A stretch of DNA of 23,408 nt from a virus, in the IMG/VR virus record IMGVR_UViG_3300048136_000203, positions 1 to 23,408 of that record; one strand, 5' to 3'. Both the position numbers and the translations under genes were made by a program. The notes under the pieces were generated by a model. The model saw only the letters and a list, made by a program, of their open reading frames with translations, did not search any database and was not told where the DNA came from. Shown here in pieces: positions 1 through 23,408 of the stretch (positions within the stretch are counted from its first letter, which is position 1; each line of letters begins with the position of its first letter).

Positions 1-284
1 CGATCTTCGGGCTTGAAAACCATTACTAGGTCTTGAGCTATTAGTTTATCGCTGAAGAAATATTCGGTGATATTGCCTAGAAAGAAGCCAATTATTTCAC
101 CTTCTCTCTCCACAACACGCATAAAGGTTGTTGTGTCAGGCTTACTGCCTGTAGCTACCCAGTAGTAGGATTTTTTATCTGACCAGCCACACTTTTCGTA
201 TAAGCTGTTTTCTTGGAACCATCGACCTAAATCATTAATTTGATTATAATCGTCGAGCGTTGGCTTACGGACGACACACTTCAT
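1..284 (-). CDS. GNAT-family acetyltransferase-like phage protein (3' end off window)
   Basis: The frame is open from an ATG at 284 to the window edge, so about 94 residues are visible and the C-terminus is missing. The protein begins MKCVVRKPTLDDYNQIND and later has REGEIIGFFLGNITEYFF followed by AQDLVMVFKPED. A beta-strand 'GEIIGFxLG' followed by an aromatic stretch and an 'AxD' strand is what GNAT N-acetyltransferases show around motif A. Small GNAT proteins are common next to the tail genes of phages. AAGG lies 6 nt before the ATG and acts as ribosome binding site. The gene sits directly behind a strong sigma70-type promoter (331-360), so it probably heads its own transcript leaving the window to the left. 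The acetyl-CoA-binding loop is not visible in this part, so the substrate is unknown and the family call is moderate. Confidence 0.65.
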   Translation of the reverse strand, partial: MKCVVRKPTLDDYNQINDLGRWFQENSLYEKCGWSDKKSYYWVATGSKPDTTTFMRVVEREGEIIGFFLGNITEYFFSDKLIAQDLVMVFKPED

Positions 285-308
285 AAATTGCCTTGGGATT
301 TGATACAA

Positions 309-325
309 TAGAGAGATTTTCTCTA
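309..325 (-). repeat. Perfect hairpin at the predicted 5' end of the GNAT transcript
   Basis: TAGAGA and TCTCTA are 6-bp perfect arms separated by 5 nt. The right arm ends at the position expected for the transcription start (about 324-325, 6-7 nt past the -10 box). The mRNA would therefore begin with a stem, which could protect the 5' end. The dyad could instead be a protein-binding site. The role is inferred. Confidence 0.45.
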
Positions 326-330
326 GGTGT

Positions 331-360
331 ATTATATCTCATAAAGGGTGTACTTATCAA
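331..360 (-). promoter_or_regulatory. Strong sigma70-type promoter for the GNAT gene
   Basis: Read on the minus strand: -35 TTGATA (355-360, 5 of 6 matches), 18-bp spacer, -10 TATAAT (331-336, 6 of 6). It points to the left and lies 47 nt upstream of the GNAT start codon. It is one of the two best promoters in the window. It implies that bacterial RNA polymerase transcribes the genes beyond the left edge independently of the tail operon. Confidence 0.75.
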
Positions 361-403
361 GTAAATAAGTGTATTAGTTAATACGACCTGTAGCTGATAA
401 GTA
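351..403. repeat. Nested inverted repeats, candidate operator
   Basis: Outer arms TACTTATCA (351-359) and TGATAAGTA (395-403) are 9-bp perfect complements. Inside them, GTATTA (371-376) and TAATAC (379-384) form a second perfect dyad with almost the same centre (377 versus 377.5). A further ATAAGT half-site is at 365-370. The left outer arm overlaps the -35 box of the promoter at 331-360. No T-tract follows on either strand, so this is not a normal terminator. A repressor or activator site is the simplest reading; this is inference. Confidence 0.5.
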
Positions 404-473
404 TATGTAACCAAATAACCCTAACAATGACGGCAATTATTTCTGCAATCAACGTTCATAGTTCCTAAATTAA

Positions 474-743
474 TCAATCACCAGAAATTGGTGCAATACT
501 TTCTTGATAAATACGTTCGTGTTCTTGTCTCATTTCGTCTGTAAAAACTAAATCACAGATTGAAATAACAAGTGGATCTTGATTTGAATAATCATGATCA
601 CAATCAATACTAGTTCTTGCATAAGTACGAGAAACTTCTATGCCGTCCTCAAAGATGACATTACTAGTTCTCACACCTACACTTTTTACTGTATTACCGA
701 CCACTTCAATTTTATCAATTATACTTTCTTTAACTAAAGACAC
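474..743 (-). CDS. Small hypothetical tail-module protein (89 aa, GTG start)
   Basis: The gene starts with GTG at 743, fixed by a strong ribosome binding site AGGAGG (749-754) 5 nt upstream. The protein begins MSLVKESIIDKIEVVGN and contains VIFEDGIEVSRTYARTSIDC and a negatively charged C-terminus (MRQEHERIYQESIAPISGD). It has no signal peptide or membrane segment and looks like an alpha/beta soluble protein. Small proteins of this pattern (EDGxEVSRTYxR, then DYSNQDPxV) recur beside fibre genes in aquatic phages as I remember them, but no function is known to me. It is the last gene of the tail operon: 189 bp of regulatory DNA follow before the GNAT gene. A structural or fibre-assembly accessory role is a guess from position. 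Confidence 0.75.
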   Translation of the reverse strand: MSLVKESIIDKIEVVGNTVKSVGVRTSNVIFEDGIEVSRTYARTSIDCDHDYSNQDPLVISICDLVFTDEMRQEHERIYQESIAPISGD

Positions 744-3959: not shown

Positions 3960-6900
3960 TTATTCCTCCACCATCAACCCATTGCTTGCGCTTACGCCAG
4001 CCGTTGTGGCAGTCGTTGTATTCGATACTCTTTGTAGACCACTGAATACGCTCGTGCCTTGACTAGTTGCTACATAGAGAAGTTTGTCTACATCATCGTA
4101 AAAGGCACTTTGTACTCCTGTATTACTGGAGCCGTGTAGGATCGCTTTTGCCCCTGTGTTGAAGAGGGTTTTCTCATCGTGATAAATTTTCTTAATCTGC
4201 TCTGGAGACGGGGCTGTTGCAGACACACGGAATAAAGACAAACTAGTGGAACCACCATGAGTGCCGTTCGACCACGCCCCTATTCTAGTGAAGCTGTCAG
4301 TTGCGTTGATGTTGGTAGAGTTTGGTGCGGTAGCGTCTAATCTTCCGTTAATCCAAAGCTCCAAGTTCCCGCTTCGTCGAATATTTTGAATACAATGCCA
4401 TTGGTTCAAAGTAGGGGTAATGTTAAAGCCGCAGTTAGTTCGGCCGCTAGATTGGATCCCGTTTGTATATACAGCAAACCCAAGTGGCCCAGCACCGGCA
4501 GTATTACCTGCAATTCCTTCAGTTCCTGAATTTGTACCAGTACCCACAGTACTGTAAATACTTTGCCCACCCACCGAGCTAAATTTTGCCCAGTACGTTA
4601 TACAGAAGTCGCCAGTGCCAAATTGGAAAGCAGAGTTATATGGCTGTTGTAAGTAATTACTTGCGCTAAACCCACTATACGACACCAGATCTGCACCAGT
4701 TGCTACAGAACTTTTTGTAATAGAACCATGAACACCTATGCCACCATTAATAGTGCTTCTATCATCTTGAGCTAAACGCACTGAAAAATTAGAAAGAGTT
4801 ATTGTGGAAGTGTTGTTATACCCATTCCAATGAAAATACATTGTTGTAGCGGTAGCAGTAAATGTAAAATAATGTGTTCCTGTAGTTTGGAATGAATTAG
4901 TTGAAATATCAGCGTCATGCTGGTTTGATGTATCGCTAATTCTCAAAACGTTCATAGCATTGACGGCAACAATATTTGATTCGATAATATACTTTTTACC
5001 TACTTCGAGAGTTGCCGATGTTCCAAAACCATCCCAAGCCGAATTTGTGTCACTATGAGTAAATATTAAATTATTACTTGAAGTAGTGAGTGTTGCGATT
5101 GTACCACTTGAAACATTTGAGTTGTCTAAATACCAATTTGTAGTGTTTGAAAAATTACTACTATTAGATATTAACTCAGAACCAGTAACATCTACTGTAT
5201 CGCTATCACTGAGTGTGGTAAGTAGATTGTCGCCAACTTGCCAACCAGTGTTTGAGTCGTGCTTGATGTTTGCTTGTAATGACGTTCTACCTGAATTACC
5301 CGCCTCAGAGTACAGGGTTAAATGTGCCCCAGTTCCATGAACAAAGTTATTTTTTCCTAAAGACCTAACGAAACCACCGTTACCATATAGGTGTGGGTGG
5401 TATTGTGTTGCAGGGTTACCGTTGTACCTACGTTCACCTTTAGTGTAATTTATAGTTCCATCATTATCGTGCCAACGGTGGACTGTAATATCATCTCCAC
5501 TACCTTTGGCAATGTAATGTTCTTCGTGGGCGACCACGCTACCATAAACACCTCCACCCTTTTTAATAACCGTGTCATCGTGGTGAATAATATTTACCCC
5601 ACCATCGGTAGCTAACAAAATTGTCTGTTTTGGTAAGCCTGTTTCTGGATCAATTGGTGCGCCGGGCCTTACCGTTACATCAATACCATTAATATCGTAG
5701 CTATTAAGAACATATTTTGGAGTTGTTCTGTCGCCTTGGATTTTAAAGTCAAAACTACTTGTATAAAGACCATTATATCGGCCCTGTCTGTAAGTAGAAA
5801 ATACTGAACCAATATTACTAAAGAAAAAGTCTCCAACAAAGCTCAATTGGAAGAAACCATTTCCACTGAATCCTCCAGTTAAAGCTCTTTGACAACAAGT
5901 TACAACACCATCTTTTGCTCTAACTTTTGCAACACTACCACTATCTTGGGTGAAGTTTGTGTATCTCGCCCAAAGAGGTAGATCAGGATCATCCGCGTCG
6001 TAAATTTCTAATTGTTGGTTCGTGTTAAAAGCTAATACTGCAACCGCTGGGAATTCTTTACGAGAGCTCCTAGTAGAACTAGACGCTTCATTATACCAGC
6101 TTGTGTGTTGAGTACGTTTACGCCAAGCTCCCCCATCACTGTCTTTGCTAGTGTCGTATACAAATATATCGTTTGCGTTAAATGTTTTAGTCTCAGCGAT
6201 AGCTTTGAGGTCTATTTCATTTACCGACAGAGTGCTTGCCATATCGACAGCACCATCGATATCTACAGCATCAAGATTAGTTGTGCCATCAATATCAACA
6301 TCACCTGATATATCGAGACTTGAGGCTACGACTTCTCCGGCCACTGTGACACCAGTTGCAGTAGTTTCAAATTTTAGACTTGGGGATGTGCCGTGGTATA
6401 ACTCGACATTACTGTTGTCGTTAACAGCAAACAAGAAATTTCCAAACTCGTCGCCAACTTTAAAATTACCACCACCATTTACTTTTAATTCAATATTAGA
6501 CGTTGTGGATTTAATGACGTTTGTTGCGCCATTGTAAAAAATTTCTAAATCTGTATTCGCCCCAAATACTAATTTATCATTGTCACCAAGGTTGATATTA
6601 CCAGTTGTAGTTAGCCCGGTGACTGTAGGACTAGAGGTTGGTACGAAGTTAGTACCGTTGTATGCTAGAAGATCATTTGTACTTACACCGCCTGTATTAA
6701 CGTCAGTCATGTCACTGAGTGACTGGTTAGACAGAGTAAAGGTGCCGTAAGTAATTACTTCTAGGATATCGCCTGTAGCCGCGCCAGAAGCTAGTTGAAT
6801 ACTATTTCCTGAAGTCGCAGTGAAGTCTGTACCATTGACGAGCTTGATACCTGATAGATAAACGTCAAGGAACCCGGCGTCGTAGCCAAGTGCGTTACCA

Positions 6901-9491
6901 TTATCGTCATCACCACTGTAAGTAGTTTGGCCGGATGTAGATGTGTATGTAAATCTTTCTGAGGTACCGTTGACCGCTGAACCGGCAGATTGCCATCCAG
7001 AAGATCCGTATACCTTCATGATGTTTGCAGTTGTATCGAAATATAGGGCTCCGACTACAAGTGCATCACCGTCGTTATCTACTGTAGGCGCACTGGATTT
7101 TGCACCGAGATAACGATCATCAAAACTATCATATGAAGCGGCGGCGGCTGTCGCGCTGGATGCCGCATTGCTTTCGCTTGTAGAAGCGGCTGACGCTGAG
7201 TTTGCGGCCGCTGTTGCACTGTTAGCCGCATTAGTAGCCGAAGTCGCGGCCGCTACAGCGGATCCGTGAATTGTATCTACATAGCTCTTTCTAGCAAGAT
7301 CATTAGCGTTAACTGGGTCTGCTGATGTCGTAATTTTGTTTGTACCAATATTGATGTCACCAGTCATGGTGCCACCCGCCGTAGCTAGTCGAGTATCTCG
7401 CTGTGCGTCGGTGTAGGCTTTAGTTGATGCATCTTGAGCATTTGTAGGATCTGTAACGCCAGTAACTTTATTAGAGCCCATAGCGATAGCACCCGACATG
7501 GTGCCGCCAGACAGGTTCAGTTTTAGGGCGTCATTAGTATCTACATAGTTCTTAGTTGCCGCATCTTGAGCCGCTGAAGGATCACCCATACCAGTGATCT
7601 TGTTTGTACTCATTGCGATTGCGCCAGTCATCGTACCACCGGCTTTCGGTAGCTTAGTCGCAATCTCGGCTGAAATTGTTGCACTGAAGTTAGGATCGTC
7701 ACCTAATGCGGCGGCAAGCTCGTTCAGTGTATCAAGTGTACCCGGGGCTGAGTCTACGAGGTTTGCTACCTCAGTATCTACATAACTCTTATTAGCCGCG
7801 TCTGAGTTAGCCGTAGGGGTAGGTAGACCAGTGACTTTTGCACCGCCTGACATAGTCAGGTTGCCAGTCATACTGTCGCCAGCCTTGGTAACTTTTAGGG
7901 CGTCGTTAGTATCGACATAATTCTTGGTGGCCGCGTCTTGTGCATCAGTTGGGTCAACGACGTTAGTAAGCTGAGTATTAGTAAAGTTTGCTGTACCGTT
8001 AACCACCACATCATTAAACGTAGAGGTTCCAGAACTTGCAGTGATATTACCCGTAACGTCACCCGTTACATCTCCAGTAATATCCCCGGTTACGTTACCT
8101 GTAACATTACCTGTGACGTTACCCGCCACATTGCCCGTTAGGGAGCCTGTAATGCCGCCAGAGGACGTTAGAGTAGTAAAGGCACCAGAAGCCTCAGTTG
8201 TGCTTCCTATTGCCGTACCGTCGATTACACCGCCATTAATATCTACTGTAGCAAGCGTTGCCTGACCAGTTGTGCTTACTGTTGTAAATGAACCAGCAAC
8301 CGCTGTACTTGCACCAATTACTGTGTTGTCAATTGTACCACTGTCAATATCAACCTTACTGATATTTACTTCGCCGTTGCCAGCCGGAGTAAGATCAATA
8401 TTACCGTTAGTATTAGTGCTGGTAATCGCATTACCATTAATATTGATGTTATCAATTTGAGCTTCAGTAACCGCTGAATTGGTACCCAATGTGATACCAT
8501 CTACAGAGCCGCCGTTAATATCGGCTGTAGTTACTGAACCTAGATTAGAAACTGTTGCAGAACCGAAGTTAACTGTGCCGTCTGCCGTTAGTCCTGTAAA
8601 TGACCCGGCCGCACGAGTTCCCGCACCAAGTACAGTGCCGTCAATGTTACCGCCGTCGATGTCTGCGCTATCGGCGTTAAGCTGATCAATCTCAGCAATT
8701 CCGTCGATATATAAATTACGCCATTCAGATCCGCTGGCACCTAGGTCATAAGTGTCGTCGGCTGATGGGATTAGATGTGAAGCTACGCCCGCTGTTACTG
8801 TTACCGTATCAGACGCCGCGTTACCAAGTGTAACGTTACCATTAGCATTAAGGTTACCTGTAACCGCAAGATCAGCACTAGCTGTTACGTTTCCACCCAA
8901 AGTACTGATACCAGTGAGTGTGAAGTTCCCACCTACTACAGCATTAGAAGTAACAGTAAGGATACCACCGATATCGGTGTTACCAGTACTCGACATAGTA
9001 TCAGCATTGATATCATCAATGTATCCGATACCATCGATATATAAATCTTTGAACTGAAGTGTAGACGTACCGATGTCCACGGTATTCGTGACTTTCGGTG
9101 CGATAATGTTAGTGTTGCTTATTGCCGCTAACGTGACCCAATTTGCATTGTTGGTTGTATTGTAGAGACAGAGATGGGTGTAACCGGTGGAGGAGTTGAT
9201 CCAGATCGAACCGGGGGCGTAGCCCTCAGTGTTATCATTGGAACTTGTTGGGTCGGTCGTGGCGGTCGTGTTGTTGAGTCCACCAACACCGCCATGAGCA
9301 GGAGGAAGATACCCAGATACAGAAGTAACCAAGTTAATTTTCGGCCCATTGCCTGTCGTTCCATCGTGTGCGTGTCCTGTGCTTCCATTAAATGCGGCTA
9401 AAAGTTGGTTAAACTCAGCATTCAATGGCGGAGCGGTAATGTTAGCTCCGTTAATAATGGAAGCAACTGATTGTCTAGTATATCCTGCCAT
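3960..9491 (-). CDS. Giant tail fibre protein with repeats and C-terminal LamG-like domain (1843 aa)
   Basis: The start ATG overlaps the stop of the hub gene (TAATG); GGGAG lies 6 nt upstream. Approximate layout by residue: 1-130 N-terminal attachment region (INGANITAPPLNAEFNQL); 135-440 repeats of the type DIDGGNIDGTVLGAG and LYIDGI; 448-484 tetrapeptide repeat GNVT/GDVT; 520-740 five copies of an (A/S)xKxYVDT unit, well known from phage fibres; 742-786 Ala/Ser-rich helix, probably a trimeric coiled coil; 843-917 an Ig-like insert related to one in the hub; 1150-1430 a region with SDGGAWRKRTQH and TDGGVNIIHHDDTV; 1600-1775 a concanavalin/LamG-like domain (FCITYWAKFSS, NLELWINGRL); 1776-1843 DKLLYVATSQGTSVF, resembling a propeller blade. 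It would be the main adsorption fibre. The LamG-like domain suggests glycan recognition; that is inference from fold. Confidence 0.9.
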   Translation of the reverse strand: MAGYTRQSVASIINGANITAPPLNAEFNQLLAAFNGSTGHAHDGTTGNGPKINLVTSVSGYLPPAHGGVGGLNNTTATTDPTSSNDNTEGYAPGSIWINSSTGYTHLCLYNTTNNANWVTLAAISNTNIIAPKVTNTVDIGTSTLQFKDLYIDGIGYIDDINADTMSSTGNTDIGGILTVTSNAVVGGNFTLTGISTLGGNVTASADLAVTGNLNANGNVTLGNAASDTVTVTAGVASHLIPSADDTYDLGASGSEWRNLYIDGIAEIDQLNADSADIDGGNIDGTVLGAGTRAAGSFTGLTADGTVNFGSATVSNLGSVTTADINGGSVDGITLGTNSAVTEAQIDNININGNAITSTNTNGNIDLTPAGNGEVNISKVDIDSGTIDNTVIGASTAVAGSFTTVSTTGQATLATVDINGGVIDGTAIGSTTEASGAFTTLTSSGGITGSLTGNVAGNVTGNVTGNVTGDITGDVTGDVTGNITASSGTSTFNDVVVNGTANFTNTQLTNVVDPTDAQDAATKNYVDTNDALKVTKAGDSMTGNLTMSGGAKVTGLPTPTANSDAANKSYVDTEVANLVDSAPGTLDTLNELAAALGDDPNFSATISAEIATKLPKAGGTMTGAIAMSTNKITGMGDPSAAQDAATKNYVDTNDALKLNLSGGTMSGAIAMGSNKVTGVTDPTNAQDASTKAYTDAQRDTRLATAGGTMTGDINIGTNKITTSADPVNANDLARKSYVDTIHGSAVAAATSATNAANSATAAANSASAASTSESNAASSATAAAASYDSFDDRYLGAKSSAPTVDNDGDALVVGALYFDTTANIMKVYGSSGWQSAGSAVNGTSERFTYTSTSGQTTYSGDDDNGNALGYDAGFLDVYLSGIKLVNGTDFTATSGNSIQLASGAATGDILEVITYGTFTLSNQSLSDMTDVNTGGVSTNDLLAYNGTNFVPTSSPTVTGLTTTGNINLGDNDKLVFGANTDLEIFYNGATNVIKSTTSNIELKVNGGGNFKVGDEFGNFLFAVNDNSNVELYHGTSPSLKFETTATGVTVAGEVVASSLDISGDVDIDGTTNLDAVDIDGAVDMASTLSVNEIDLKAIAETKTFNANDIFVYDTSKDSDGGAWRKRTQHTSWYNEASSSTRSSRKEFPAVAVLAFNTNQQLEIYDADDPDLPLWARYTNFTQDSGSVAKVRAKDGVVTCCQRALTGGFSGNGFFQLSFVGDFFFSNIGSVFSTYRQGRYNGLYTSSFDFKIQGDRTTPKYVLNSYDINGIDVTVRPGAPIDPETGLPKQTILLATDGGVNIIHHDDTVIKKGGGVYGSVVAHEEHYIAKGSGDDITVHRWHDNDGTINYTKGERRYNGNPATQYHPHLYGNGGFVRSLGKNNFVHGTGAHLTLYSEAGNSGRTSLQANIKHDSNTGWQVGDNLLTTLSDSDTVDVTGSELISNSSNFSNTTNWYLDNSNVSSGTIATLTTSSNNLIFTHSDTNSAWDGFGTSATLEVGKKYIIESNIVAVNAMNVLRISDTSNQHDADISTNSFQTTGTHYFTFTATATTMYFHWNGYNNTSTITLSNFSVRLAQDDRSTINGGIGVHGSITKSSVATGADLVSYSGFSASNYLQQPYNSAFQFGTGDFCITYWAKFSSVGGQSIYSTVGTGTNSGTEGIAGNTAGAGPLGFAVYTNGIQSSGRTNCGFNITPTLNQWHCIQNIRRSGNLELWINGRLDATAPNSTNINATDSFTRIGAWSNGTHGGSTSLSLFRVSATAPSPEQIKKIYHDEKTLFNTGAKAILHGSSNTGVQSAFYDDVDKLLYVATSQGTSVFSGLQRVSNTTTATTAGVSASNGLMVEE
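8043..8157 (-). repeat. 12-bp tandem repeat coding for GNVT/GDVT tetrapeptides
   Basis: About nine 12-nt units in a row encode Gly-(Asn/Asp)-(Val/Ile)-Thr inside the giant fibre. The codons differ between units (ggt/ggg/gga/ggc, aat/aac/gat/gac), so the protein period is better kept than the DNA. That points to selection for the tetrapeptide rather than recent slippage. The block separates the upstream beta repeats from the YVDT repeats. Confidence 0.85.
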
Positions 9492-13193: not shown

Positions 13194-13244
13194 AGTTCAT
13201 CTCCTTTTAGATGTTATGAAATTCAACACCAGTCAATTTGTACG

Positions 13245-13264
13245 AACTCAGCTATTGCTGAATT
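13245..13264 (-). repeat. Hairpin in the capsid leader
   Basis: AATTCAGC and GCTGAGTT form an 8-bp stem (one G-T pair) around an AATA loop, about 50 nt before the capsid ATG. There is no T-tract after it, so it could be an mRNA processing or stabilising structure rather than a terminator. Confidence 0.4.
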
Positions 13265-13360
13265 ACGCCACTAGTGTCGTTACAAAACAGAAGGGATAGC
13301 TTCATGAAGGGCTAAGTGAGACGGGGTATCTTCCGAGGAAGGGCCTTTTCAACTTAGGTA

Positions 13361-13439
13361 ACTTTAGAATTAAACTTCTGAAAATAGGGAAGGGTGAGGT
13401 AGGAAAGTATGATAAAACTAAAGTAAGACTTTAGAATTA
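13361..13439. repeat. 12-bp direct repeat actttagaatta
   Basis: Identical copies are at 13361-13372 and 13428-13439, 67 bp apart in the capsid leader. The right copy forms one arm of the small terminator-like hairpin. It could be a protein site or a chance duplication. Confidence 0.45.
13414..13434 (-). terminator. Weak terminator or attenuator hairpin upstream of the capsid gene
   Basis: The minus strand reads CTAAAGT, a CTT loop, ACTTTAG, then TTTT. The 7-bp stem is AT-rich, so a weak terminator is expected. It lies about 30 nt after the start predicted for the promoter at 13471-13500, which is the layout of an attenuator. Confidence 0.4.
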
Positions 13440-13470
13440 CATAGGTTTCGGCTCTGATATTATTAAGGTT

Positions 13471-13500
13471 GTTATACCACAATAACTAAGTGTTTAGCAA
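13471..13500 (-). promoter_or_regulatory. Candidate extended -10 promoter for the capsid gene
   Basis: Minus strand: -35 TTGCTA (13495-13500, 4 of 6), 18-bp spacer, -10 TATAAC (13471-13476, 5 of 6), with TGG directly before the -10 box (extended -10, TGn). It begins 6 nt past the scaffold stop codon. Confidence 0.5.
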
Positions 13501-21018: not shown

Positions 21019-21253
21019 AGTCGTAATCGTAAAATTCGGAATACCCCCGGAATATCGTGGCTTCTTTTCTCGCCTGATTAGGGGTAATTAGACCTTCCTC
21101 TAGAAGGTATTGACGGACTTCCTCTAATTTCAGGGAAACGCCCGTAGCCGCTTCAATTGCGGCTTTTATGTAGATAAGATTTATTGAATTAGTTTTTGAA
21201 GACACTGTGCTTCTGGTAATTGTTATAACACTACTACGGTAATAAAGCAACAC
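20924..21253 (-). CDS. Small acidic protein overlapping the next gene (up to 109 aa, start uncertain)
   Basis: The core AAIEAATGVSLKLEEVRQYL continues LEEGLITPNQARKEATIF, then FRGYSEFYDYDYGEIKDDFE. It reads as a helical, acidic protein with a clear phage-like pattern (LxxEEVRxxLxEEGLIT...FRGYSEFYD). The first about 25 residues from the GTG at 21253 do not look coding. A GTG at 21205 is an alternative start; neither has a good ribosome binding site. The last 95 nt also encode the N-terminus of the 61-aa basic protein in another frame. Function unknown. Confidence 0.6.
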   Translation of the reverse strand: MLLYYRSSVITITRSTVSSKTNSINLIYIKAAIEAATGVSLKLEEVRQYLLEEGLITPNQARKEATIFRGYSEFYDYDYGEIKDDFEAQELNFEQQDMRQRYRVGEENL

Positions 21254-22183: not shown

Positions 22184-22212
22184 ATTATACGATAATTAAT
22201 CCCTTTTGACAA
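22184..22212 (-). promoter_or_regulatory. Strong sigma70-type promoter of the packaging/structural operon
   Basis: Minus strand: -35 TTGTCA (22207-22212, 5 of 6), 17-bp spacer, -10 TATAAT (22184-22189, 6 of 6). It is the best-spaced promoter in the window and faces the 110-aa gene and everything to the left. Transcription would start near 22177. Confidence 0.8.
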
Positions 22213-22224
22213 ACTTTGTGTCAA
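22206..22224. promoter_or_regulatory. Dyad over the -35 box, candidate operator
   Basis: TTGACA and TGTCAA are perfect 6-bp arms separated by 7 bp, and the left arm covers the -35 box at 22207-22212. A protein bound here would control the late operon. Operator function is inferred. Confidence 0.5.
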
Positions 22225-22728
22225 TACCCCCCATAAACGTTCAGGGGAATTCGGTATTTTACAGTATATAGTCCGTAGGGCCCCTCGGATCTGTTGACAG
22301 TACCCATTTTCCAATCTCTGGCGGTAGTTGTATACGGTAACGGGTACCCCCCACCCGGCACTGGCGGCCCCGGTTCGGCCTTGTCCGGCCGCAATATCCC
22401 ACGGCAAAACCCACGGGGCCCGGGAATCGCCCGGAATCATTGGGGAAAATTACCCGGGGCGCATAACGCATAGTTATTAGCCGGGGAAATATCGGGCCCG
22501 GGAAACGTCCGCCGCCGGTGTTTACAAAATAAACCGGGCCGAGGGCGGGGCGTCGCGGTGTACGCTATAGCCGGTTAAAAATACCCCTACCCCCCCGGAC
22601 GGCCCCGGCCATATCATAAGGCGGCCATATAACGCCACCACGGGCGGAAACATCCCGGGCAATACTAACCCACCGGGGCCGGATAAAACGCCACCACGGG
22701 GCCGAGAATAGGACGGGAAACAATAGGC
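22225..22728. other. GC-rich gene-free island
   Basis: About 500 bp with no frame that has both a ribosome binding site and a natural-looking protein. It is packed with GGCC, CCGG and CCCGGG strings. It holds an 11-bp repeat gggcccgggaa (22416-22426 and 22494-22504) and a 14-bp repeat aacgccaccacggg (22631-22644 and 22687-22700) in a degenerate unit about 56 bp long. It lies between a terminator and a promoter block. A replication origin, packaging site or non-coding RNA are possible; none is shown. Confidence 0.6.
22631..22700. repeat. 14-bp direct repeat with 56-bp period
   Basis: aacgccaccacggg is at 22631-22644 and 22687-22700. Similar bases (ggcc..ata before it) extend the match upstream, so this looks like a diverged tandem duplication of about 56 bp. 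Confidence 0.6.
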
Positions 22729-22756
22729 AAAAAAAACCCCGGCACAATGGCCGGGG
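22729..22756 (-). terminator. Strong intrinsic terminator of the right-hand operon
   Basis: Minus strand: CCCCGGC, a 6-nt loop (CATTGT), GCCGGGG, then eight T. The 7-bp stem is all G-C. It begins 24 nt after the stop of the 73-aa gene and closes the transcript coming from the right edge. Confidence 0.93.
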
Positions 22757-22779
22757 CTGGATACGTTAACGGGCCCGGA

Positions 22780-23001
22780 TTAAAACCGGGGCGGGGTATA
22801 GTCCGGCAAATGCTCGGCCGCCGTCGCGTAGGTTTCCGGGCAATGTTCGGCCGTTCCGTCATAGTCCGGCCAAACCCCGGCCGCCACGTTGTCGCAATAC
22901 ATAACGGCGGCCCTTAGTTCATCATTAAAATCGGCGCGGCCCACCATGCCAAGGGCGATGATAAACACCGCCCCGACAAGGATATAGGCTAAACGGCCCA
23001 T
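22780..23001 (-). CDS. Small exported or membrane-anchored phage protein (73 aa)
   Basis: A hydrophobic N-terminal helix (residues 4-21, LAYILVGAVFIIALGMVG) is followed by a soluble part, AVMYCDNVAAGVWPDYDGTA with C36, and then EHCPETY with C54. The pattern 'YC..V..G.WPDY.G....C' occurs in many small phage proteins with an N-terminal signal or anchor; the two Cys could form a disulfide in the periplasm. Role unknown. The ATG shares a base with the stop of the DUF932-type gene (TAATG), so the two are probably translated together. Codon use is GC-rich, as in its neighbour and unlike genes to the left. Confidence 0.75.
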   Translation of the reverse strand: MGRLAYILVGAVFIIALGMVGRADFNDELRAAVMYCDNVAAGVWPDYDGTAEHCPETYATAAEHLPDYTPPRF

Positions 23002-23408
23002 TATGCCGCCACCCTTTGGAATGCGTCGCCGTCTACAATTCGCTGAACTTCACGCTCGCGGCCGTCTAAAGTTACCGCCACGTTGTCAACGTTCCCGGAA
23101 TTGCGAACCCCGAAACGCTCGGAATTGTGCGAGGCATAATTAGTAAGGGCCGAGTAAAAGGCCCAAACAGTGCGCCCACGGGCCGCCGCTTCATTTTCGA
23201 ATTGTTGCATTACATTCTTAACCTTGCGCCCGGCCATTCCGGCATCATTTAACACGGCCTCGGCCTCGGCTGGCGTCATGGTGTTTTGCGCCCATGCTTG
23301 CCACGTTCTAACGCGGGTTTTAAAATTGGCCGCTTGCTCTTCTATAAACCCGGCGAAAATTTCCGGGGTAAAGCCGGACGTATGACGGGCCGCCTTGCGG
23401 GTATATTC
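23001..23408 (-). CDS. DUF932-type phage protein, C-terminal part (start off window)
   Basis: The frame stays open to the right edge, giving at least 135 residues; a methionine at 23279 is internal, not the start. The visible part has RKAARHTSGFTPEIFAGFIE, RTWQAWAQNTMTPAEAEAVL, KVKNVMQQFENEAAARGRTV, then WAFYSALTNYASHNSERFGV and a GREREVQRIVDGDAFQRVA ending. 'WxxYxAxTxYASHN' followed by a basic stretch close to the end is the signature of the DUF932 (phage/plasmid-like) family. Such proteins are often expressed early. Their biochemical role is not established. It is GC-rich and forms an operon with the 73-aa gene. Confidence 0.75.
   Translation of the reverse strand, partial: EYTRKAARHTSGFTPEIFAGFIEEQAANFKTRVRTWQAWAQNTMTPAEAEAVLNDAGMAGRKVKNVMQQFENEAAARGRTVWAFYSALTNYASHNSERFGVRNSGNVDNVAVTLDGREREVQRIVDGDAFQRVAA

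Follow-up and report, generated by a model that had tools for sequence, protein, structure and literature searches.

Stem-loops at the 5' terminus of an mRNA stabilize the transcript and hinder 5'-end-dependent decay, according to Emory et al. 1992, cited in PMC3997798. In the ompA and papA leaders, such a stem-loop occupies the first nucleotides of the mRNA, its sequence being free and its pairing kept. Among promoters, the alphaproteobacterial sigma70-type consensus is CTTGAC-N17-CTATAT (PMC2873474), and MerR-type promoters carry a palindrome centred between -35 and -10 boxes that lie 19–20 bp apart. The comparative paper on HMO-2011-type phages (PMC9038755) makes no mention of promoters.

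Comparison of a marine Roseobacter-type phage sequence with its relatives suggests that an internal late promoter, P3, occupies the gap before its GNAT-type acetyltransferase gene and serves GNAT and the virion genes that follow, its mRNA beginning with a hairpin that would protect the 5' end; we assign this reading a probability of about 0.72. P3 resembles sigma70-type promoters in its TTG core at -35, its TATAAT at -10 and a predicted start about 7 bases on. It departs from the alphaproteobacterial consensus in its 18-bp spacer and, in the relatives, in the weak last three bases of the -35 box; the spacer palindrome of close relatives is a further difference from sigma70-type promoters. The P3 leader shares with ompA and papA a stem-loop at the first (here predicted) nucleotides of the mRNA, free in sequence and constant in pairing. 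Unlike in those leaders, the stem is only 6–8 bp and its stabilizing effect is a prediction.

Genomic Context

The window, as the whole 23.4-kb stretch of IMGVR_UViG_3300048136_000203 is called here, has every large gene on the minus strand, including those for terminase, portal, capsid and tail proteins, a small phrog_6228 protein and the GNAT-type acetyltransferase. Its portal is 60–70% identical to those of Roseobacter phages CRP-3 (70%), CRP-212, CRP-235 and CRP-738 and of Puniceispirillum phage HMO-2011, and the order terminase-portal-coat-tail is common to the window and HMO-2011-type isolates. This portal homology and matching gene order place the window among the HMO-2011-type marine podoviruses, of whose genome it represents the late half. 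A tRNA search of the window returned none, and DNA similarity to isolate phages was not found for its first 1.5 kb. At the right end (22200–23408) the GC content rises from about 45% to 55–60%; the DNA there is 70–78% identical to relatives G001 and G006, and so is genuine to the phage group. Positions 3960–9491 on the minus strand encode a tail protein of 1843 residues with many short-motif repeats (GNVTGNVTGNV, DPTNAQDAATKNYVD).

The genes that flank the gap are:

474–743, minus strand: small phrog_6228 protein
3–284, minus strand: opening 94 codons of a GNAT-family acetyltransferase gene, with the ATG at 284–282 and the remainder cut off by the contig end

The 3–308 frame has a PHROG acetyltransferase match. 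Relatives of the encoded protein are 88–89% identical, and their alignment backs the ATG at 284–282; full-length relatives match Pfam GNAT weakly. The gap itself (285–473) is 189 bp long with 31% GC, and the genes on both sides are oriented alike. To the left, in relatives, lie GNAT and then a long virion-type protein. In G001 the latter has 1010 residues, is repetitive, and begins with MCGGGG, resembling the start of the post-GNAT protein in L004; it is probably an internal virion protein.

The closest relatives are G001 (L002/L196), G002 (L003), G004 (L207), G005 (L208) and G006 (L209). Of these, the capsid comparison covered G001, G004, G005 and G006, whose MCP is 85–88% identical to that of the window. 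The GNAT gene is found in relatives at 48–100% identity to the G001 protein.

A Conserved Promoter Sequence Upstream of GNAT

All of the elements that the original prediction named for 285–473 (dyads, ATAAGT, promoter and hairpin) are present where it placed them. They differ in how they stand up to chance expectation and to comparison with relatives. The promoter elements are:

355–360, minus strand: P3 -35 box TTGATA; upstream context ACTTGATA; TTG in 7/7 aligned promoters
331–336, minus strand: P3 -10 box TATAAT; 18-bp spacer; invariant in 7/7 aligned promoters
285–324, minus strand: putative 5' leader of about 40 nt for the GNAT mRNA, its first base predicted from the -10 box

P3 thus reads TTGATA (360–355)-18-TATAAT (336–331), which matches the consensus at 11 of 12 positions, with hexamers spaced within the 16–18 bp that defines sigma70-type promoters. 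The position of the -10 box places +1 at about 324. In 300 shuffles of the 31% GC gap that keep dinucleotides, a promoter matching at 11/12 or better occurs in 1.3% (p about 0.013), and 2 of 123 window tiles contain one. Judged by the window without its relatives, the promoter is the one element of the gap that rises above chance. No intrinsic terminator (GC-rich stem plus T run) is found in the gap, and an Rfam covariance-model search of the window gave no match. A T7-like promoter candidate (TAATACGAC, 379–387) was rejected: its match extends over the first nine bases only, and transcription from it would oppose every gene.

The host-type promoter that had been described is borne out in the relatives. 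TTGnnn-18-TATAATAC occurs before GNAT, at the same place, in G001, G002, G004, G005 and G006, and a promoter of this type is also present in L254 and L255, whose GNAT proteins are 73% and 69% identical. TTGnnn-18-TATAAT is therefore kept in six GNAT-carrying relatives (G001/G002, G004, G005, G006, L254 and L255). The spacer is 18 bp in all seven aligned promoters. The -35 boxes of the close relatives are weak (TTGTAT, TTGTGT, TTGCTC and TTGCTC, versus TTGATA in the window). The rest of the gap is unalignable at the DNA level, with lengths between 101 and 314 bp and different genes on its upstream side.

Searches of larger collections delimit the specificity of the pattern. The only IMG/VR contigs with a relaxed form (TACACCCNTTNTGNTGTATAATAC) are those of G001, G002, G004 and G006, all of which carry GNAT. 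The shorter ACACCCTTT plus TATAAT at the correct spacing has 90 matches collection-wide; this is chance level, since a wrong-spacer control gives 101, and only the longer pattern is specific. A mismatch-tolerant search of whole relative genomes returned noise only. The gaps examined near the corresponding position in isolates CRP-3, CRP-212, CRP-235, HMO-2011, CRP-13 and CRP-810 do not have such a promoter; among the annotations of these six, GNAT is listed only in CRP-810, at another location. On this comparative evidence the P3 region appears to be a real, evolutionarily kept promoter, a useful but fairly ordinary control region.

A Stem-Loop at the Predicted Transcription Start

Immediately downstream of the -10 box lies a further element:

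309–325, minus strand: 5'-terminal stem-loop of the predicted transcript, TAGAGA-AAATC-TCTCTA; stems of different sequence at the same place in relatives

The window hairpin has a perfect 6-bp stem (325–320 paired with 314–309) and a loop of 5, at the predicted +1. Taken alone it is within chance (p 0.07–0.15; folding z 0.03), and hairpins of 6 bp are as numerous in 15% of 300 shuffles of the gap. Its significance derives from comparison with relatives and not from the window sequence. Right after the -10 box the stems are TAGAGA/TCTCTA in the window, AAAGAGG/CCTCTTT in G001, TAGATAG/CTATCTA in G004–G006, TAGGTAA/TTACCTA in L254 and ATATAAAA/TTTTATAT in L255. Five independent leaders thus have a perfect stem of 6–8 bp at about +1, constant in pairing and variable in sequence. 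A stem so close to the 5' end is one hallmark of the stem-loop stabilizers, a longer mRNA half-life being the other. Shuffle p values for the five are 0.07, 0.03, 0.02, 0.015 and 0.016, and the combined value, 6e-5, is optimistic because the limits of the search (a start no more than 14 bases away and a loop of at most 26) were set after examples had been seen. An independent control, 389 -10-like sites on the late strand of the same genomes, points in the same direction: a stem of at least 6 bp follows 9% of them, and one of at least 7 bp follows 2.8%.

The hairpin noted originally at the predicted start has thus gained weight from the relatives. Promoter and start-site hairpin are found together at the operon boundary in all close relatives that keep GNAT, and their retention before GNAT in six relatives argues, as had been proposed, that the gap is not ordinary spacing. 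Its 31% GC content and the occurrence of the dyads and hairpin within shuffle expectation would fit AT-rich intergenic sequence with chance matches only, but the positions of promoter and hairpin are kept in six relatives despite otherwise unalignable gaps, and we regard that account of the locus as very improbable.

Late Promoters and a Model for P3 Function

In a two-strand scan of the window and of G001, G004, G005 and G006 for TTG-17/18-TATAA[TC], only three sites recur on the late strand:

21222–21250, minus strand: P1, TTGCTT-17-TATAAC, where the block of small genes and terminase begins; conserved in G001 and G006
13471–13500, minus strand: P2, TTGCTA-18-TATAAC, ahead of the major capsid gene; conserved in 4 relatives
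360–331, minus strand: P3, before GNAT

P2 and P3 are both conserved TTG-18-TATAA[TC]-A sites. Unlike P3, P2 lacks a 5'-terminal hairpin and has a different spacer sequence (dyad CCAC/GTGG); no 5'-terminal stem was found at P1 either. Similar promoters precede the coat genes of CRP-3 and CRP-212. Between P2 and the capsid start (13194–13470, minus strand) lies a leader of roughly 275 nt, well conserved across the genus and rich in repeated CCCTTC and inverted-repeat elements, which may be a structured capsid leader.

P3 would be read by host RNA polymerase: its boxes match the host-type consensus, and a search for a phage single-subunit RNA polymerase gene found none, though the positive control of that search gave no match either. 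Initiation at P3 would supply mRNA for GNAT and the virion-protein genes beyond it, in addition to read-through from the tail genes. By analogy with ompA-type leaders, the terminal stem-loop could shield the P3 mRNA from 5'-end-dependent decay. Since the gene after GNAT in G001 probably encodes an internal virion protein, the most likely role of P3 is to boost a block of late genes situated at the distal end of that region. In close relatives, the palindrome in the spacer could let a dimeric regulator tune P3; half of that palindrome is lost in the window.

Symmetry in the Promoter Spacer

Two sets of repeats overlap the promoter:

334–353, minus strand: spacer dyad position, 20 bp; ATACACC-N6-GGTGTAT in G001, GTACACCCTTTATGAGATAT in the window
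326–373, plus strand: three GTGTA copies, 326–331 GGTGTA, 347–352 GGTGTA and 368–373 AGTGTA, exactly 21 bp apart; window-specific

The spacer palindrome is present in G001, G004, G005, G006 and L254. It is degenerate in the window, where the left half is kept and the decayed right arm reads GAGATAT. For the 21-bp spacing of GTGTA in the window, a shuffle test devised post hoc gives p 0.015. G001 likewise repeats GTATAATAC 21 bp apart.

It is possible that a repressor or activator acts on P3 through this palindrome in the manner of MerR, the window copy and its 21-bp GTGTA repeats representing a shifted operator, though we consider this doubtful. No other position around the seven promoters is as symmetric as the dyad (42 pairs; mean 19, sd 6), in the five relatives that carry it the palindrome lies between the -35 and -10 boxes as at MerR-type promoters, and both arms change together in L254 (CCC/GGG) and G005 (ACT/AGT). 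This covariation is only suggestive, however, as 41 of 500 shuffles reach its score. The right arm partly coincides with the constrained -10 box, and only 4 of 10 positions pair in the window. Furthermore, the spacer is 18 bp in 7/7 promoters rather than the 19–20 bp of MerR-type promoters, and at 18 bp an activator is unneeded. Searches of G000, G001 and G006 for a MerR-domain (PF00376) gene found none, in contrast to MerR-type systems and to control genomes, which matched; a host protein could still fill the role. Any regulation by a protein may act through the spacer dyad, a different one from the outer dyads described below.

Nested Dyads and Alternative Interpretations

Farther upstream is a cluster of inverted repeats:

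351–403, no strand assigned: outer dyad 351–359/395–403, inner dyad 371–376/379–384, ATAAGT 365–370; not conserved

The outer arms, TACTTATCA (351–359) and TGATAAGTA (395–403), are centred on 377, and the inner arms, GTATTA (371–376) and TAATAC (379–384), on 377.5. That they share nearly one centre, with the -35 box of P3 overlapping one outer arm, had prompted the idea of a regulated switch, with the dyads as its operators, between the tail operon and the genes on the left. The relatives speak strongly against such a switch, which we regard as very improbable. Relatives with both GNAT and the promoter have no counterpart of either dyad, the very finding by which the original prediction proposed that the idea be judged, and the G001 gap, 101 bp in all, is shorter than the span the dyads would need upstream of the promoter. 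A perfect 9-bp inverted repeat appears in 11% of gap shuffles (p 0.11). Nor does the gene arrangement indicate a switch: all genes are co-oriented, both gap-flanking genes included, and in relatives the left side consists of GNAT and a virion-type protein.

The same repeats might instead act in read-through RNA, as a long hairpin that is processed in an RNase III-like manner or that shields the 3' end of the tail mRNA, with the second hairpin shielding the downstream 5' end. The gap folded as RNA does form a long stem in which the 351–359 and 395–403 arms pair and the inner dyad makes up the tip (z -1.96), a fold that carries little weight because it is not conserved. Processing would not require the conserved hairpin to lie exactly at the start of a conserved promoter, and the gap holds no terminator-like site; we judge this interpretation improbable. 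The outer nested dyads are probably incidental, and an internal promoter with a 5'-terminal stem-loop remains the preferred reading.

Structured Leaders in Other Lineages

In distant lineages the GNAT gap holds a leader of 130–190 nt. At least 13 of these long leaders, which belong to other marine phage lineages, share a motif 25–70 nt before the start codon, in which a stem AGYY/RRCU and an internal loop AC/AYAY are followed by invariant U-A and C-G pairs and then by a variable stem. In the outer stem, 3 of 4 pairs change on both sides, and 95% of cells are paired versus 88% after shuffling; pairing is at most 61% when the motif is slid. A covariance model finds one match per genome, before GNAT, with one weaker second match in G017. 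Likewise, the high-scoring matches of an IMG/VR pattern search that have a readable downstream gene all precede GNAT. The long leaders have no Rfam match. The motif, AGYYACUC - variable stem - GAAYAYRRCU, lies at L264:1937-1962, L273:1931-1957 and L275:1931-1970, and at about 1930-1970 in L276, L278, L281, L282, L284, L285, L288 and L289. Other GNAT leaders differ but fold: L256-L258 (about 1937-1976), L259-L269 (about 1840-2000) and L270-L271, with z -4.2 in L256 and -1.8 in L260. The L256-L271 leaders possibly include a related form, AGCCACGC - stem - GCGUUCUUACACGG.

The long-leader motif does not explain the window, since the window's genus lacks it. Nevertheless, the GNAT gene appears often to be given a structured leader. 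A broader proposal, that the pre-GNAT slot is devoted to cis-regulation and that its leader RNA, under structural constraint in all lineages, controls GNAT, for example by feedback, we hold to be unlikely. If it were true, these leaders, long and bearing a new ACUC/GAAYA internal-loop motif in some phages and reduced to one 5' hairpin in the window's genus, would form a new family of phage leader RNAs.

Implications

Phages of the HMO-2011 type rank among the dominant groups of marine phages, and the three conserved late promoters, one of them with a conserved 5' hairpin, provide a testable map of their transcription. Across lineages GNAT is equipped with a promoter of its own and a structured leader, which suggests that the dose or timing of this acetyltransferase matters.
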